DNA from: a virus
IMG/VR virus record: IMGVR_UViG_3300048102_000104
Location: 1-36,304 of that record
Strand: one strand, 5' to 3'
DNA length: 36,304 nt
Made by a program: the position numbers and the translations under genes. This document shows positions 4,440 through 16,124 of the stretch, piece by piece. Every line of letters starts with the position of its first letter. The first letter of the stretch is position 1. The notes below the pieces were generated by a model. The model was not told the origin of the DNA and did no database searches. It saw only the letters and a program-made list of their open reading frames with translations.

Positions 4440-4496
4440 ATGTTTAGTTGGTTCGTTTTATGTAGGCACAACTTTACTTAAAAATCGTGCAGGAAA

Positions 4497-4559
4497 ATTC
4501 TAGTAACAGGTTGGATAATTCTAGTAATATGGTGGATCATTCTAGTAACATGATGGAGT
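4497..4559. repeat. Three tandem 21-bp imperfect direct repeats (iteron/operator-like)
   Basis: Copies at 4497-4517, 4518-4538 and 4539-4559 all begin ATTCTAGTAA and keep a GGTTGGA/GGTGGA/GATGGA core. The period of 21 bp is two helical turns, so a protein would meet each copy on the same face. They lie between a strong leftward promoter and the first gene it would express, within the predicted 5' leader. Reading them as codons gives stops in the relevant frames, so a peptide repeat is unlikely. Confidence 0.85.
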
Positions 4560-4588
4560 ATACGATTAACATAACTTACATCGGATTT

Positions 4589-5327: not shown

Positions 5328-5405
5328 ATTGTTAGTTGTTTCCTGCGCTTGATCGTATCGCGCAGTCTCGTTTGAATGCTAATAAAATTAATAGCCTTGT
5401 CTACC

Positions 5406-5436
5406 AAAAAAGCCCGCACCGGTGAAGGTGCGAGCT
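5406..5436 (-). terminator. Leftward terminator T1 of the small-gene cassettes
   Basis: Leftward RNA forms AGCUCGCACC / GGUGCGGGCU with a 6-nt loop, then six U. One pair is a U-G wobble, which would be a C-A mismatch on the other strand, so the hairpin is built for leftward transcription. It lies 6 nt after the stop of the 33-aa membrane protein gene. Confidence 0.85.
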
Positions 5437-5442
5437 GGTGAA

Positions 5443-5544
5443 TTAGAAGTGCATTCTGTAAAGGCCGTGGCAAATGCCAATAATGGTCGTGATTACGCTA
5501 ACGGCTACACAGATGACAAAGATTTGATCGTCGGATAGTTTCAT
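5443..5544 (-). CDS. Small single-span membrane protein, 33 aa
   Basis: A 33-codon frame: short charged N-terminus (MKLSDDQ), then an uninterrupted hydrophobic helix (IFVICVAVSVITTIIGIC) and a short polar tail. The ATG overlaps the stop of the 41-aa membrane gene (ATGA at 5541-5544), which supports a real coupled pair. A dedicated terminator follows immediately. Function unknown: membrane micro-proteins of this type can block superinfection or disturb host membranes, but nothing here proves it. Confidence 0.6.
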   Translation of the reverse strand: MKLSDDQIFVICVAVSVITTIIGICHGLYRMHF

Positions 5545-5666
5545 AGATAGTGCATGATGATTGATACCGCTAGCAGTAAGCCCGCGATGATGATGCTCCA
5601 GAATACGATGAACGCACTCTCCTCCTGCTTGTCTGTTTTGACTAGCTTGTTGGTTTCTTTTTTCAT
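5541..5666 (-). CDS. Small single-span membrane protein, 41 aa
   Basis: The 41-aa frame begins MKKETNKLVKTDKQEES (basic, cytoplasmic-like) and continues into a hydrophobic helix (AFIVFWSIIIAGLLLAVSII). The start is backed by the GAACCAA leader element (reverse complement 5677-5683) and the hairpin at 5694-5708. Its stop overlaps the start of the 33-aa membrane gene by 4 nt. The two proteins may form a hetero-complex in the inner membrane. No family is recognised. Confidence 0.65.
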   Translation of the reverse strand: MKKETNKLVKTDKQEESAFIVFWSIIIAGLLLAVSIIMHYL

Positions 5667-5693
5667 GGTTAGTTTATTGGTTCTTGTTAGTTA

Positions 5694-5708
5694 TAAGCAG
5701 TGTGCTTA
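5694..5708 (-). promoter_or_regulatory. Intercistronic hairpin (TAAGCA / TGCTTA, 3-nt loop)
   Basis: Perfect 6-bp inverted repeat with a GTG spacer (CAC in leftward RNA), between terminator T2 and the GAACCAA leader of the 41-aa gene. The counterpart at 6110-6124 has a different stem but the same loop. Confidence 0.6.
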
Positions 5709-5713
5709 CACCC

Positions 5714-5742
5714 AAAAAGCCCGCACCGATTAAGGTGCAGGC
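5714..5742 (-). terminator. Leftward terminator T2
   Basis: Leftward RNA pairs GCCUGCACC with GGUGCGGGC (one U-G wobble in the same place as T1), followed by five U. It lies 12 nt after the stop of the 108-aa gene. Confidence 0.85.
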
Positions 5743-5753
5743 TGAGGGTTAAG

Positions 5754-6080
5754 TTACGCTTCCAGTGCGTCCCACTTGTCCATCCATGCAGTCCACGCAT
5801 CGTCGGACTCCTTGAGGGTTTTAGCGGGTATGTCTTTCGAGTTACCGAAGTCATAGATAGTAGCCGAGGCCTCGTTGCCGATGATGACATAGGCGGTGAT
5901 GCCATGCCCGTCTTTGTTGAAGGACAGTGAGCCTTCCTCGGTGCCAAGCACCCAGTCTACGGCTTCTGTCGTGGATGGATTTTTGATGCGGTCTTCACCG
6001 TCGCTAGCTGAAACTAGCTTGAAGCCTGCAACCTCTTGGAAGTGGATGAAGGAGCGAAGGACTTTATTATAATCGGTCAT
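5754..6080 (-). CDS. Hypothetical protein, 108 aa
   Basis: Unrecognised acidic soluble protein, Trp/Asp-rich near the C-terminus (DDAWTAWMDKWDALEA). The frame extends upstream to 6131 through the terminator and hairpin region, but the ATG at 6080 sits just after the GAACCAA leader as in the neighbouring cassettes, so I choose it. It is flanked by T2 downstream and the hairpin/T3 module upstream: one self-contained cassette. Confidence 0.7.
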   Translation of the reverse strand: MTDYNKVLRSFIHFQEVAGFKLVSASDGEDRIKNPSTTEAVDWVLGTEEGSLSFNKDGHGITAYVIIGNEASATIYDFGNSKDIPAKTLKESDDAWTAWMDKWDALEA

Positions 6081-6109
6081 AGTATTTATTGGTTGGTTCT
6101 TGTTAATTT

Positions 6110-6124
6110 GACGGAGTGTCCGTC
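6110..6124 (-). promoter_or_regulatory. Intercistronic hairpin (GACGGA / TCCGTC, 3-nt loop)
   Basis: Perfect 6-bp inverted repeat with the same GTG spacer as 5694-5708 but an unrelated stem, which is what covariation under RNA-structure selection would give. It lies 10 nt from the T3 A-run (leftward U-run) and just before the leader of the 108-aa gene. Confidence 0.6.
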
Positions 6125-6129
6125 TACCC

Positions 6130-6159
6130 AAAAAGCCCGTAGCTGGGTAGCTACGAGCT
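6130..6159 (-). terminator. Leftward terminator T3
   Basis: Leftward RNA pairs AGCUCGUAGC with GCUACGGGCU and then has four to five U. The upper stem (GUAGC/GCUAC) differs from T1 and T2 (GCACC/GGUGC) by compensatory changes, while the U-G wobble near the base is kept. It follows the stop of the 75-aa gene by 6 nt. Confidence 0.85.
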
Positions 6160-6165
6160 GTTGGA

Positions 6166-6393
6166 TTACAGGTCTTCGGATAGTTCGTTCAGCAACTGCT
6201 TTGCTCTTGAATACCCTACACCCTCGTGGATTTTGTTATGCGTCTCCATATACTCCTGCAAGAGGGTATCCATGACGTATTCAATAATCTCTGATTTCTC
6301 ATGACAGCTACGCTCGCTGTCATCGAGTGCATTGATGTTGGCAATAGCCTCAGGGAGACTGTTCATGGCGGTTTTTACTCCGTTTAGTATCAT
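6166..6393 (-). CDS. Hypothetical protein, 75 aa
   Basis: Unrecognised, acidic and helical, with no membrane span. It forms the second cassette of the leftward accessory block: variant leader (AAACCAA, reverse complement at 6403-6409) 10 nt before the ATG, and its own terminator T3 after the stop. Likely an early host-modulating protein by position only. Confidence 0.65.
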   Translation of the reverse strand: MILNGVKTAMNSLPEAIANINALDDSERSCHEKSEIIEYVMDTLLQEYMETHNKIHEGVGYSRAKQLLNELSEDL

Positions 6394-6423
6394 AATATTT
6401 GATTGGTTTATGTTAGTTAATTT

Positions 6424-6440
6424 GTAAGCGGATTGCTTAC
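6424..6440 (-). promoter_or_regulatory. Intercistronic hairpin (GTAAGC / GCTTAC, 5-nt loop)
   Basis: Perfect 6-bp inverted repeat between terminator T4 and the leader of the 75-aa gene, in the same relative place as the hairpins at 5694 and 6110. Confidence 0.6.
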
Positions 6441-6446
6441 ACCCAG

Positions 6447-6478
6447 AAAGCCCGCACCAGATGGACTGGATACGGGCT
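6447..6478 (-). terminator. Leftward terminator T4
   Basis: Two-part stem AGCCCG/CGGGCT and CCAG/CTGG with a small internal loop. The tract after it in leftward RNA is weak (UUUCUGGGU). It is 5 nt beyond the stop of the 72-aa gene. Confidence 0.75.
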
Positions 6479-6483
6479 GTGGA

Positions 6484-6702
6484 TTACTCCGAGAAGAGCT
6501 TGCGAGATACGTCTGCGGCAGAGGCTTTCCATGCCTCCCAACTGACCAAAGCACCGCAACCTTTTTCCCAAGTCTCGGGTTGGTCGTCGAGTGCCGCGAT
6601 CTGCTCGCAGTATTTCTCGATTGCGCTGATGACCACAATTTGGTTCAGTGGTGAGCCGAAGTTCATTGCGTCAGTTACTTTTTCTACGTTTGATTTACTC
6701 AT
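6484..6702 (-). CDS. Conserved phage hypothetical protein, 72 aa; first leftward gene
   Basis: The segment MNFGSPLNQIVVISAIEKYC (13-32) resembles small phage proteins with an F-GSP-x-Q-x(4)-AIxKY pattern that I have seen in many siphoviral and podoviral early regions; their function is unknown to me. The protein is soluble and helical. Leader: GAACCAA (reverse complement 6711-6717) 8 nt before the ATG. It is the first gene of the leftward arm after the divergent region, so it is probably among the earliest expressed. Confidence 0.72.
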   Translation of the reverse strand: MSKSNVEKVTDAMNFGSPLNQIVVISAIEKYCEQIAALDDQPETWEKGCGALVSWEAWKASAADVSRKLFSE

Positions 6703-6734
6703 GTTTTTGATTGGTTCTTGTTATTGGCTCTCCT

Positions 6735-6915
6735 CATTTACAGCGGCTTGAGACGCTCGCAGAGTGCGGCTGAGTTACCAATCTATGTCCCACTTACTAC
6801 GTCATCAGACCCTCTGGGTTTCACCCCGAGGAAGGTAGCGTTTGGACTGTCAAGGAACGGGAACTGCGGCCGCATACTACCACGGCTTCCCTAATCCACG
6901 CGAGGTTTTTTTTCC
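6735..6915 (-). ncRNA. Structured 5' leader or small RNA candidate in the divergent region
   Basis: No reading frame of credible length fills this ~180-nt stretch on either strand, yet it is rich in inverted repeats. Examples: CCTC-GGGT / ACCC-GAGG at 6811-6831 with a 3-nt loop, and GGGAA (6859-6863) with TTCCC (6887-6891) enclosing GCCG/CGGC (6869-6872, 6883-6886), plus smaller hairpins near 6742-6772. If the leftward promoter at 6922-6950 is real, the region is a structured leader upstream of the 72-aa gene. An independent rightward RNA ending at the T-run 6906-6913 is the alternative, but that run lacks a good stem. No known RNA family is recognised. Confidence 0.4.
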
Positions 6916-6921
6916 ACATAA

Positions 6922-6950
6922 ACTATGGATTAGCAGTAACTCGTTGACAA
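6922..6950 (-). promoter_or_regulatory. Candidate leftward promoter, back-to-back with the rightward one
   Basis: Minus-strand TTGTCA (6950-6945), 17-nt spacer, CATAGT (6927-6922). The -35 matches the sigma70 consensus at 5 of 6 positions and the -10 at 4 of 6. Its -35 overlaps the rightward -35, so the two would compete for, or share, polymerase. Confidence 0.45.
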
Positions 6951-16094: not shown

Positions 16095-16121
16095 GGGGGG
16101 CTTCGGCCCCCCGCCTTTTTT
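16095..16121 (+). terminator. Strong rho-independent terminator after the capsid genes
   Basis: GGGGGGC-TTCG-GCCCCCC with a UUCG tetraloop, then GCC and six T. Rightward and very stable. It lies mid-operon between head and tail genes, so it probably reduces downstream tail expression relative to capsid, like the T7 terminator after gene 10. Confidence 0.95.
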
Positions 16122-16124
16122 AAT

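Follow-up and report, generated by a model that had tools for sequence, protein, structure and literature searches.

A repeated intercistronic RNA block with an interchangeable element before tiny early genes of uncultured viruses

The leftward early arm and its relatives

The window, meaning the whole stretch of 36,304 bases analysed here, is an IMG/VR virus record classed as linear. Its rightward structural arm encodes a terminase (44 bits to the large-subunit PHROG), a major head protein, and a 2084-aa protein; the leftward arm encodes an Erf-like annealing protein, an exonuclease, endonuclease VII, and part of a DnaB-type helicase. Tiny early genes, in the window (minus strand) and in its relatives, are preceded by a block whose parts stand in the order terminator, UUUYUGGGU linker, 17-nt hairpin, SD-less A/C-rich leader, and AUG.

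A preliminary description of this DNA had reported a recurring three-part block, and all of its parts were found on the minus strand where it had placed them. The three terminators it counted are present; the window has four, the one at 6478-6449 being an extra variant with UUUCU. The first three window terminators are followed by GGGT, the 17-nt hairpin, and an A/C-rich leader running to the ATGs at 6393, 6080, and 5666. The last block (5436-5328) begins with a terminator, lacks the canonical hairpin, and belongs to a different, "terminal" block type before ATG 5327. The features of the arm are as follows.

6874..6950 (-): candidate early promoter region; the register -35 CTTGACY / -10 TANTAT is conserved in relatives
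6904-6899 and 6879-6874 (-): window -35 CTCGCG and -10 TAGTAT in the conserved register
6950-6922 (-): TTGTCA-17-CATAGT, an additional promoter-like site in the head region
6785..6853 (-): RAGATH-24 RNA (Rfam RF03049), close to where the early transcript would begin
6724..6781 (-): type-P1 twister ribozyme (Rfam RF03160), where later genes carry the hairpin
6703..6723 (-): first-gene leader GAACCAATC, A/C-rich
6484..6702 (-): small early gene encoding 72 aa, whose homologues in relatives have a terminator and hairpin ahead of them in place of the twister
6449..6478 (-): block 1 terminator-like hairpin, differing in sequence from the others and ending in the weak U-tract UUUCU
6424..6440 (-): slot hairpin GTAAGC-AATCC-GCTTAC of block 1, after linker GGGT at 6444-6441
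6394..6423 (-): leader TAAACCAATC of gene 6393-6166
6134..6159 (-): terminator-like hairpin of block 2, upper stem GUAGC/GCUAC
6109..6125 (-): slot of block 2, after linker GGGT at 6129-6126, with hairpin GACGG-ACACT-CCGTC at 6124-6110
6081..6108 (-): leader GAACCAACC of gene 6080-5754
5718..5743 (-): terminator-like hairpin of block 3, upper stem GCACC/GGUGC
5693..5709 (-): slot of block 3, after linker GGGT at 5713-5710, with hairpin TAAGCA-CAC-TGCTTA at 5708-5694
5667..5692 (-): leader GAACCAATA of gene 5666-5541
5411..5436 (-): terminator-like hairpin of the terminal block
5328..5410 (-): terminal block, with a U-rich-loop hairpin (5395-5378), a CTGCGC/GCGCAG hairpin (5365-5343), and a leader

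Two tiny ORFs of 41 and 33 aa (5666-5443, minus strand) overlap by ATGA, and each apparently has a membrane segment. In the late arm a GGGGGGCTTCGGCCCCCC hairpin with a T-run (16095-16124, plus strand) ends right at ATG 16125, another terminator-to-start arrangement, and positions 4492-4572 hold 21-nt tandem repeats of the TTCTAGTAA type.

A terminase search gave 80 loci. By terminase, Phage C75C1 (71%) is the only named relative; its genome is circular and 39.5 kb long, and its leftward arm, read through, contains no such block. Comparison of the window region with named phages by blastn gave no match. The block pattern GGGCTTTYTGGGTR-N15-40-AACCAATC matches 43 viral contigs, and the same pattern reversed, used as a control, matches none. 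In 84,980 cellular genomes it has three scattered, unrelated matches, about the number that would be expected by chance (some three, by our own estimate), and these point to no host. Canonical blocks occur in 74 of the fetched loci, which is more than the number of distinct viruses, because some contigs are represented by two overlapping stretches. Within any one locus the blocks always share a strand, and a homologue of some window protein is encoded by 73 of the 74 loci. Recurrence of the block by chance is excluded. The carriers are a family of uncultured viruses of bacteria, probably marine to judge by an impression from the sample series. Since GGGT formed part of the search pattern, its conservation is partly due to selection of the matches; it is nonetheless found in nearly all such terminators of the loci selected by terminase.

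Folds of the terminator and the slot hairpin

Among 140 terminator stems, 119 have a 5'U-G pair within the six basal pairs, a wobble that works only in leftward RNA. The 1x1 mismatches in these stems are A-A and G-G, never A-C, and perfect stems have a mean energy of -16.3 kcal/mol. The earlier argument that wobble pairs reveal the strand therefore stands for the terminators and fails for the short hairpin, in which wobbles do not discriminate strand. An extended terminator stem, with GGGU paired to an upstream ACC, was considered; its pairing was weakly above control (0.77 versus 0.71), and it is not relied on.

The hairpins align without gaps after GGGT. In 70 distinct hairpins, which were chosen for pairing, the covariation score is 0.450 against 0.111 +/- 0.017 when shuffled (0/500), standard pairs fill 88.6% of cells (66.9% shuffled, 27-44% slid), and both-side changes occur in 75 cells. 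With no choice for pairing, 93 distinct slots are 81% paired, compared with 62% when shuffled. Pair 4-14 occurs as AU (45), CG (15), GC (5), and UA (5); A3-U15, G5-C13, loop A7, and pyrimidine 10 are invariant or nearly so, and the loop, ANNYN, is variable. A hairpin of at least 4 bp is present in the slot of 141 of 142 blocks (mean z -3.4). Blocks outside the canonical register fold too, into a 7-bp GTAACCC hairpin followed by GCGCC/GGCGC or an 11-position GTAAGCAGGTC hairpin, and further off-register slot hairpins have the stems GTCCGGAC, GCCGG, and GCCCG.

The covariation of the aligned slots, together with their similar spacing, shows that the RNA fold is under selection. The preliminary description had proposed RNA-level structure with compensation and had named covariation and conservation in related phages as its check; the score of the 70 hairpins, the 74 loci, and the natural swaps with a tRNA-like domain or twister described below all support this. 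At two loci (L016:7551 and L018:4547, both minus strand) a slot is followed by about 80 nt lacking an ORF, possibly an RNA gene; comparison of this element with Rfam gave no credible match.

Elements exchanged in the slot

The head of the operon carries a RAGATH-24/type-P1 twister pair that was absent from the preliminary description. RAGATH-24 scores 64.5 bits in the window, above its gathering score of 45.3. The twister, directly before the first-gene leader, scores 53.5 bits (E 5e-10), below its gathering score of 67.2; its core is conserved with GGUAA, and its stems covary in relatives (CTCA/TGAG, TGTA/TACA, CCCA/TGGG, and ATCA/TGAT). Twister ribozymes cleave themselves between U and A (PMC5408937), and cleavage is predicted at U6777^A6776. 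Rfam finds one or both of these RNAs in L029, L034, L041, L060, L087, L091, L107, and L118; a pattern flags 23 of 25 distinct heads as twister, and one more (L056) is twister-like by eye. The first gene behind the pair differs between phages. In the heads of L016, L021, L034, and L118, RAGATH-24 has a variable insert of at least 100 nt in which the segments GACTCCGACCTCGGATG...CTTGCGGATATATG are conserved; it looks like an additional structured domain. In the literature collection searched, no relevant paper on RAGATH-24 or type-P1 twisters in phages was found, and few biological roles are known for the twister and RAGATH RNAs of bacteria and phages.

In some cassettes and terminal blocks of relatives, and nowhere in the window, the slot holds, instead of the hairpin, a tRNA-like domain of the tmRNA type that is 66-67 nt long; its places are as follows.

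L041:7382-7448, L096:11453-11519, and L101:12078-12144 (-): tRNA-like domain, Rfam tmRNA
Terminal blocks of L004, L008, L016, L025, L029, and L034: tRNA-like domain

Rfam scores this domain as tmRNA with 53-70 bits, above the gathering score of 47; it has an acceptor stem with G3-U70, a T-arm, a CCA end, and a TTCGAC D-loop region, and it lacks a tag region. The terminal block holds a 67-nt copy in 11 of 21 distinct relatives, about 24 nt ahead of the ATG. RNase P acts on tRNA-like domains; this one is a predicted substrate of both RNase P and AlaRS, and possibly a trans-translation decoy. Longer mini-tmRNA-like elements of 78-81 nt were seen in other viral contigs (L129:655-732, L130, L131, L138, L139, L154, and L159), none of which ARAGORN calls as tmRNA.

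L113 and L096 agree in terminator, linker, leader end, and gene; the slot alone is exchanged, holding a hairpin in the former and the 67-nt domain in the latter. The same gene stands behind a hairpin in L034 and behind the tRNA-like domain in L041 and L101, and window gene 6702, behind the twister, has homologues in L110, L120, and L086 behind terminator and hairpin. From element to ATG the distance has a median of 26 for the hairpin (n=100) and is mostly 16-25 for the twister and mostly 23-34 for the tRNA-like domain; the three folds come to an end at some 21-26 nt ahead of the AUG. Comparison of these loci shows that the three element types interchange before the same genes.

The genes themselves are modular: the 144 cassette ORFs, whose median length is 76 aa, group into 84 families, those with at least three members are each found with 2-5 kinds of hairpin arm, and cassette genes and hairpins have been recombined. 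Such variety, with an Erf-like protein and an exonuclease encoded nearby, would be expected if the block were mainly a recombination and insulation cassette, composed of an ordinary strong terminator that stops read-through and a generic ribosome-landing 5' UTR and kept in repeated form for the shuffling of accessory genes. We consider this quite unlikely, however, because the fold of the RNA is under selection, as its covariation and similar spacing show, because exchange with a ribozyme that cleaves itself suggests RNA processing, and because transcription of the downstream genes would be left unexplained.

Expression of the early array and comparison with known systems

The leaders consist of 54% A and 2% G and are unpaired at 0.83, compared with 0.72 for shuffled tails; an SD-like 4-mer is found in 0 of 127 leaders, as against 11 of 30 rightward window genes. 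The GAACCAA-type leader of the preliminary description is indeed present (as AAACCAA or GAACCAA) but is not specific to the block, the same type standing at the block-less genes 858, 1428, and 4439 and at gene 6702 behind the twister.

Promoters were scored with a generic E. coli sigma70 matrix. By this matrix, which may not suit the host, blocks score 4.67 against 5.24 for shuffles (n=128) and 17 heads score 7.5 against 6.3. The best match in most of the 17 heads lies in one register, CTTGACY-16/17-TANTAT, in which the -35 of the window is degenerate (score 1.5). In 11 complete arrays, 29 promoter-like sites are sense and 41 antisense. No RNA polymerase was recognised with Pfam in the large proteins of the window or of Phage C75C1, although a divergent one may escape recognition, and the annotation of that phage contains none, so the host polymerase is assumed. 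The spacer that surrounds the hairpin was weighed as the place of a sigma70 promoter, since some blocks read TATAAT or TACAAT after the stem; this was rejected because others read TCGAAC and because block scores lie below those of shuffles. An N4-type promoter was considered too, with no such polymerase recognised.

One possibility offered by the preliminary description was a new kind of compact promoter in every block. An unusual sigma factor or an N4-like hairpin-dependent polymerase would then make the cassettes independent transcription units, as the good terminator ahead of each block and the -10-like motifs in a few blocks might suggest; the PeSL (promoter early stem-loop) cassettes of T4-like phages are promoter-plus-terminator units according to PMC4503421. 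We regard autonomous promoters as very unlikely here, given the missing sigma70 signal of the 128 blocks, the absence of a sense excess in the 11 arrays, the lack of a recognised polymerase, slot sequences that vary with pairing alone conserved, and a 67-nt domain tolerated between U-run and leader in some blocks. The other possibility offered, that the transcript is processed or antiterminated at these points, gains from the covariation and the natural slot swaps, and the interpretation as a whole is partly supported.

Our preferred explanation, for and against which we find the case evenly balanced, is that the block is an intercistronic RNA punctuation module with an interchangeable 5'-end element in a polycistronic early transcript. 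Host RNA polymerase would transcribe the early operon from one head promoter (about 6874-6950). In the first half of each block, a terminator-type 3' hairpin would close the upstream message; in the middle, the slot would form or protect the 5' end of the next message by means of a structured element, usually the small covarying hairpin, at the operon head the type-P1 twister, and in some cassettes and the terminal block a tRNA-like domain cut by RNase P; and on the last part, the unstructured SD-less A/C-rich leader of about 21-26 nt, ribosomes would start. Transcription would read through the terminators, which may be leaky or antiterminated, possibly via RAGATH-24, and the RNA would be cut at or before the slot. 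The plain hairpin may be the minimal form, giving 5'-end stability or protection and keeping the leader open, and the repeated module would offer homology for cassette shuffling by the phage Erf-type annealing protein.

Repetition, covariation, similar spacing, the missing promoter signal, and element interchange are shown at the level of sequence, and an RNA-level 5'-end function is the most economical reading because three unrelated folds occupy one place, two of them known or predicted RNA cleavage elements. A 5-6 bp hairpin by itself is no known processing site, which counts against the model where 5' ends at hairpin blocks are concerned.

The weak point of the model is the passage of terminators: perfect stems with U5 would be expected to stop much transcription, so read-through must be assumed, and complete arrays have 3-7 terminators (11 arrays) ahead of the replication genes with no obvious internal promoter. 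In L098, RAGATH-24 is followed at once by a block of terminator, GGGT, hairpin, and leader (L098:611, plus strand), which stands ahead of all genes in place of most of the twister, so that antitermination or an unseen promoter is needed. This arrangement would suit processive antitermination, with RAGATH-24 and/or each slot hairpin acting on polymerase like HK022 put or lambda nut RNA, as would the start of RAGATH-24 close behind the early promoter and, since the first gene varies between phages, the lack of a constant N-like protein in first position. We think this explanation unlikely: the slot hairpin is replaceable by a twister or tRNA-like domain and so is less likely to bind polymerase or N specifically, its loop varies, and the literature collection searched gave no experimental data on RAGATH-24. 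That RAGATH-24 itself is a put-like, cis-acting antiterminator close behind the promoter is a guess. Doubtful is the fullest form of the punctuation model, in which twister, mini-tmRNA domain, and plain hairpin would be functionally equivalent in a plug-in 5'-end slot. One antiterminated early transcript would then be divided by them into monocistronic mRNAs that need no SD, and RAGATH-24 would let polymerase pass the terminators.

The nearest analogue of the block is the PeSL cassette of T4-like phages (Arbiol 2010; Comeau 2014; both via PMC4503421). As far as that account describes them, PeSLs are likewise repeated terminator-bearing cassettes between tiny variable early genes, linked to gene shuffling; terminator stem-loops between early genes (140 folded) and shuffling of the flanked genes (84 families among 144 cassettes) are found here as well. 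An early promoter inside the cassette is not (4.67 versus 5.24 shuffled; 29 sense versus 41 antisense sites), and the block differs further in belonging to another phage group and in having, relative to PeSLs as described there, a second structured slot that exchanges with a ribozyme or tRNA-like domain.

Likeness to twister and RAGATH-24 rests on the Rfam matches at the operon head, the covarying stems, and the conserved GGUAA core; the twister scores below its curated threshold, and, in the cassette array that the pair heads, simple hairpins stand at this place in the other members. The tRNA-like domain of relatives resembles tmRNA (RF00023) in its CCA and G3-U70, and differs from it in measuring 66-67 nt in all, in having neither tag reading frame nor pseudoknots, and in its placement in an mRNA leader. 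As at the RNase III/RNase E intercistronic sites of T7-like phages, hairpins between early genes would give discrete mRNAs, but here there are two short hairpins with a U-rich linker, and cleavage is putative. Unlike lambda nut/boxB, with its conserved boxA and protein-binding loop, the slot has a variable ANNYN loop and is replaceable; the position of RAGATH-24 fits a cis antiterminator RNA such as HK022 put, and it may have a role in antitermination.

The occurrence of twister-P1/RAGATH-24, a stripped-down tmRNA domain, and simple hairpins at one position before the same genes leads us to propose for them a role in mRNA 5'-end definition and protection. Slot interchange suggests a plug-in way to clean gene starts from one long transcript, which, if true, would be a natural counterpart of the ribozyme-plus-hairpin insulators of synthetic biology.
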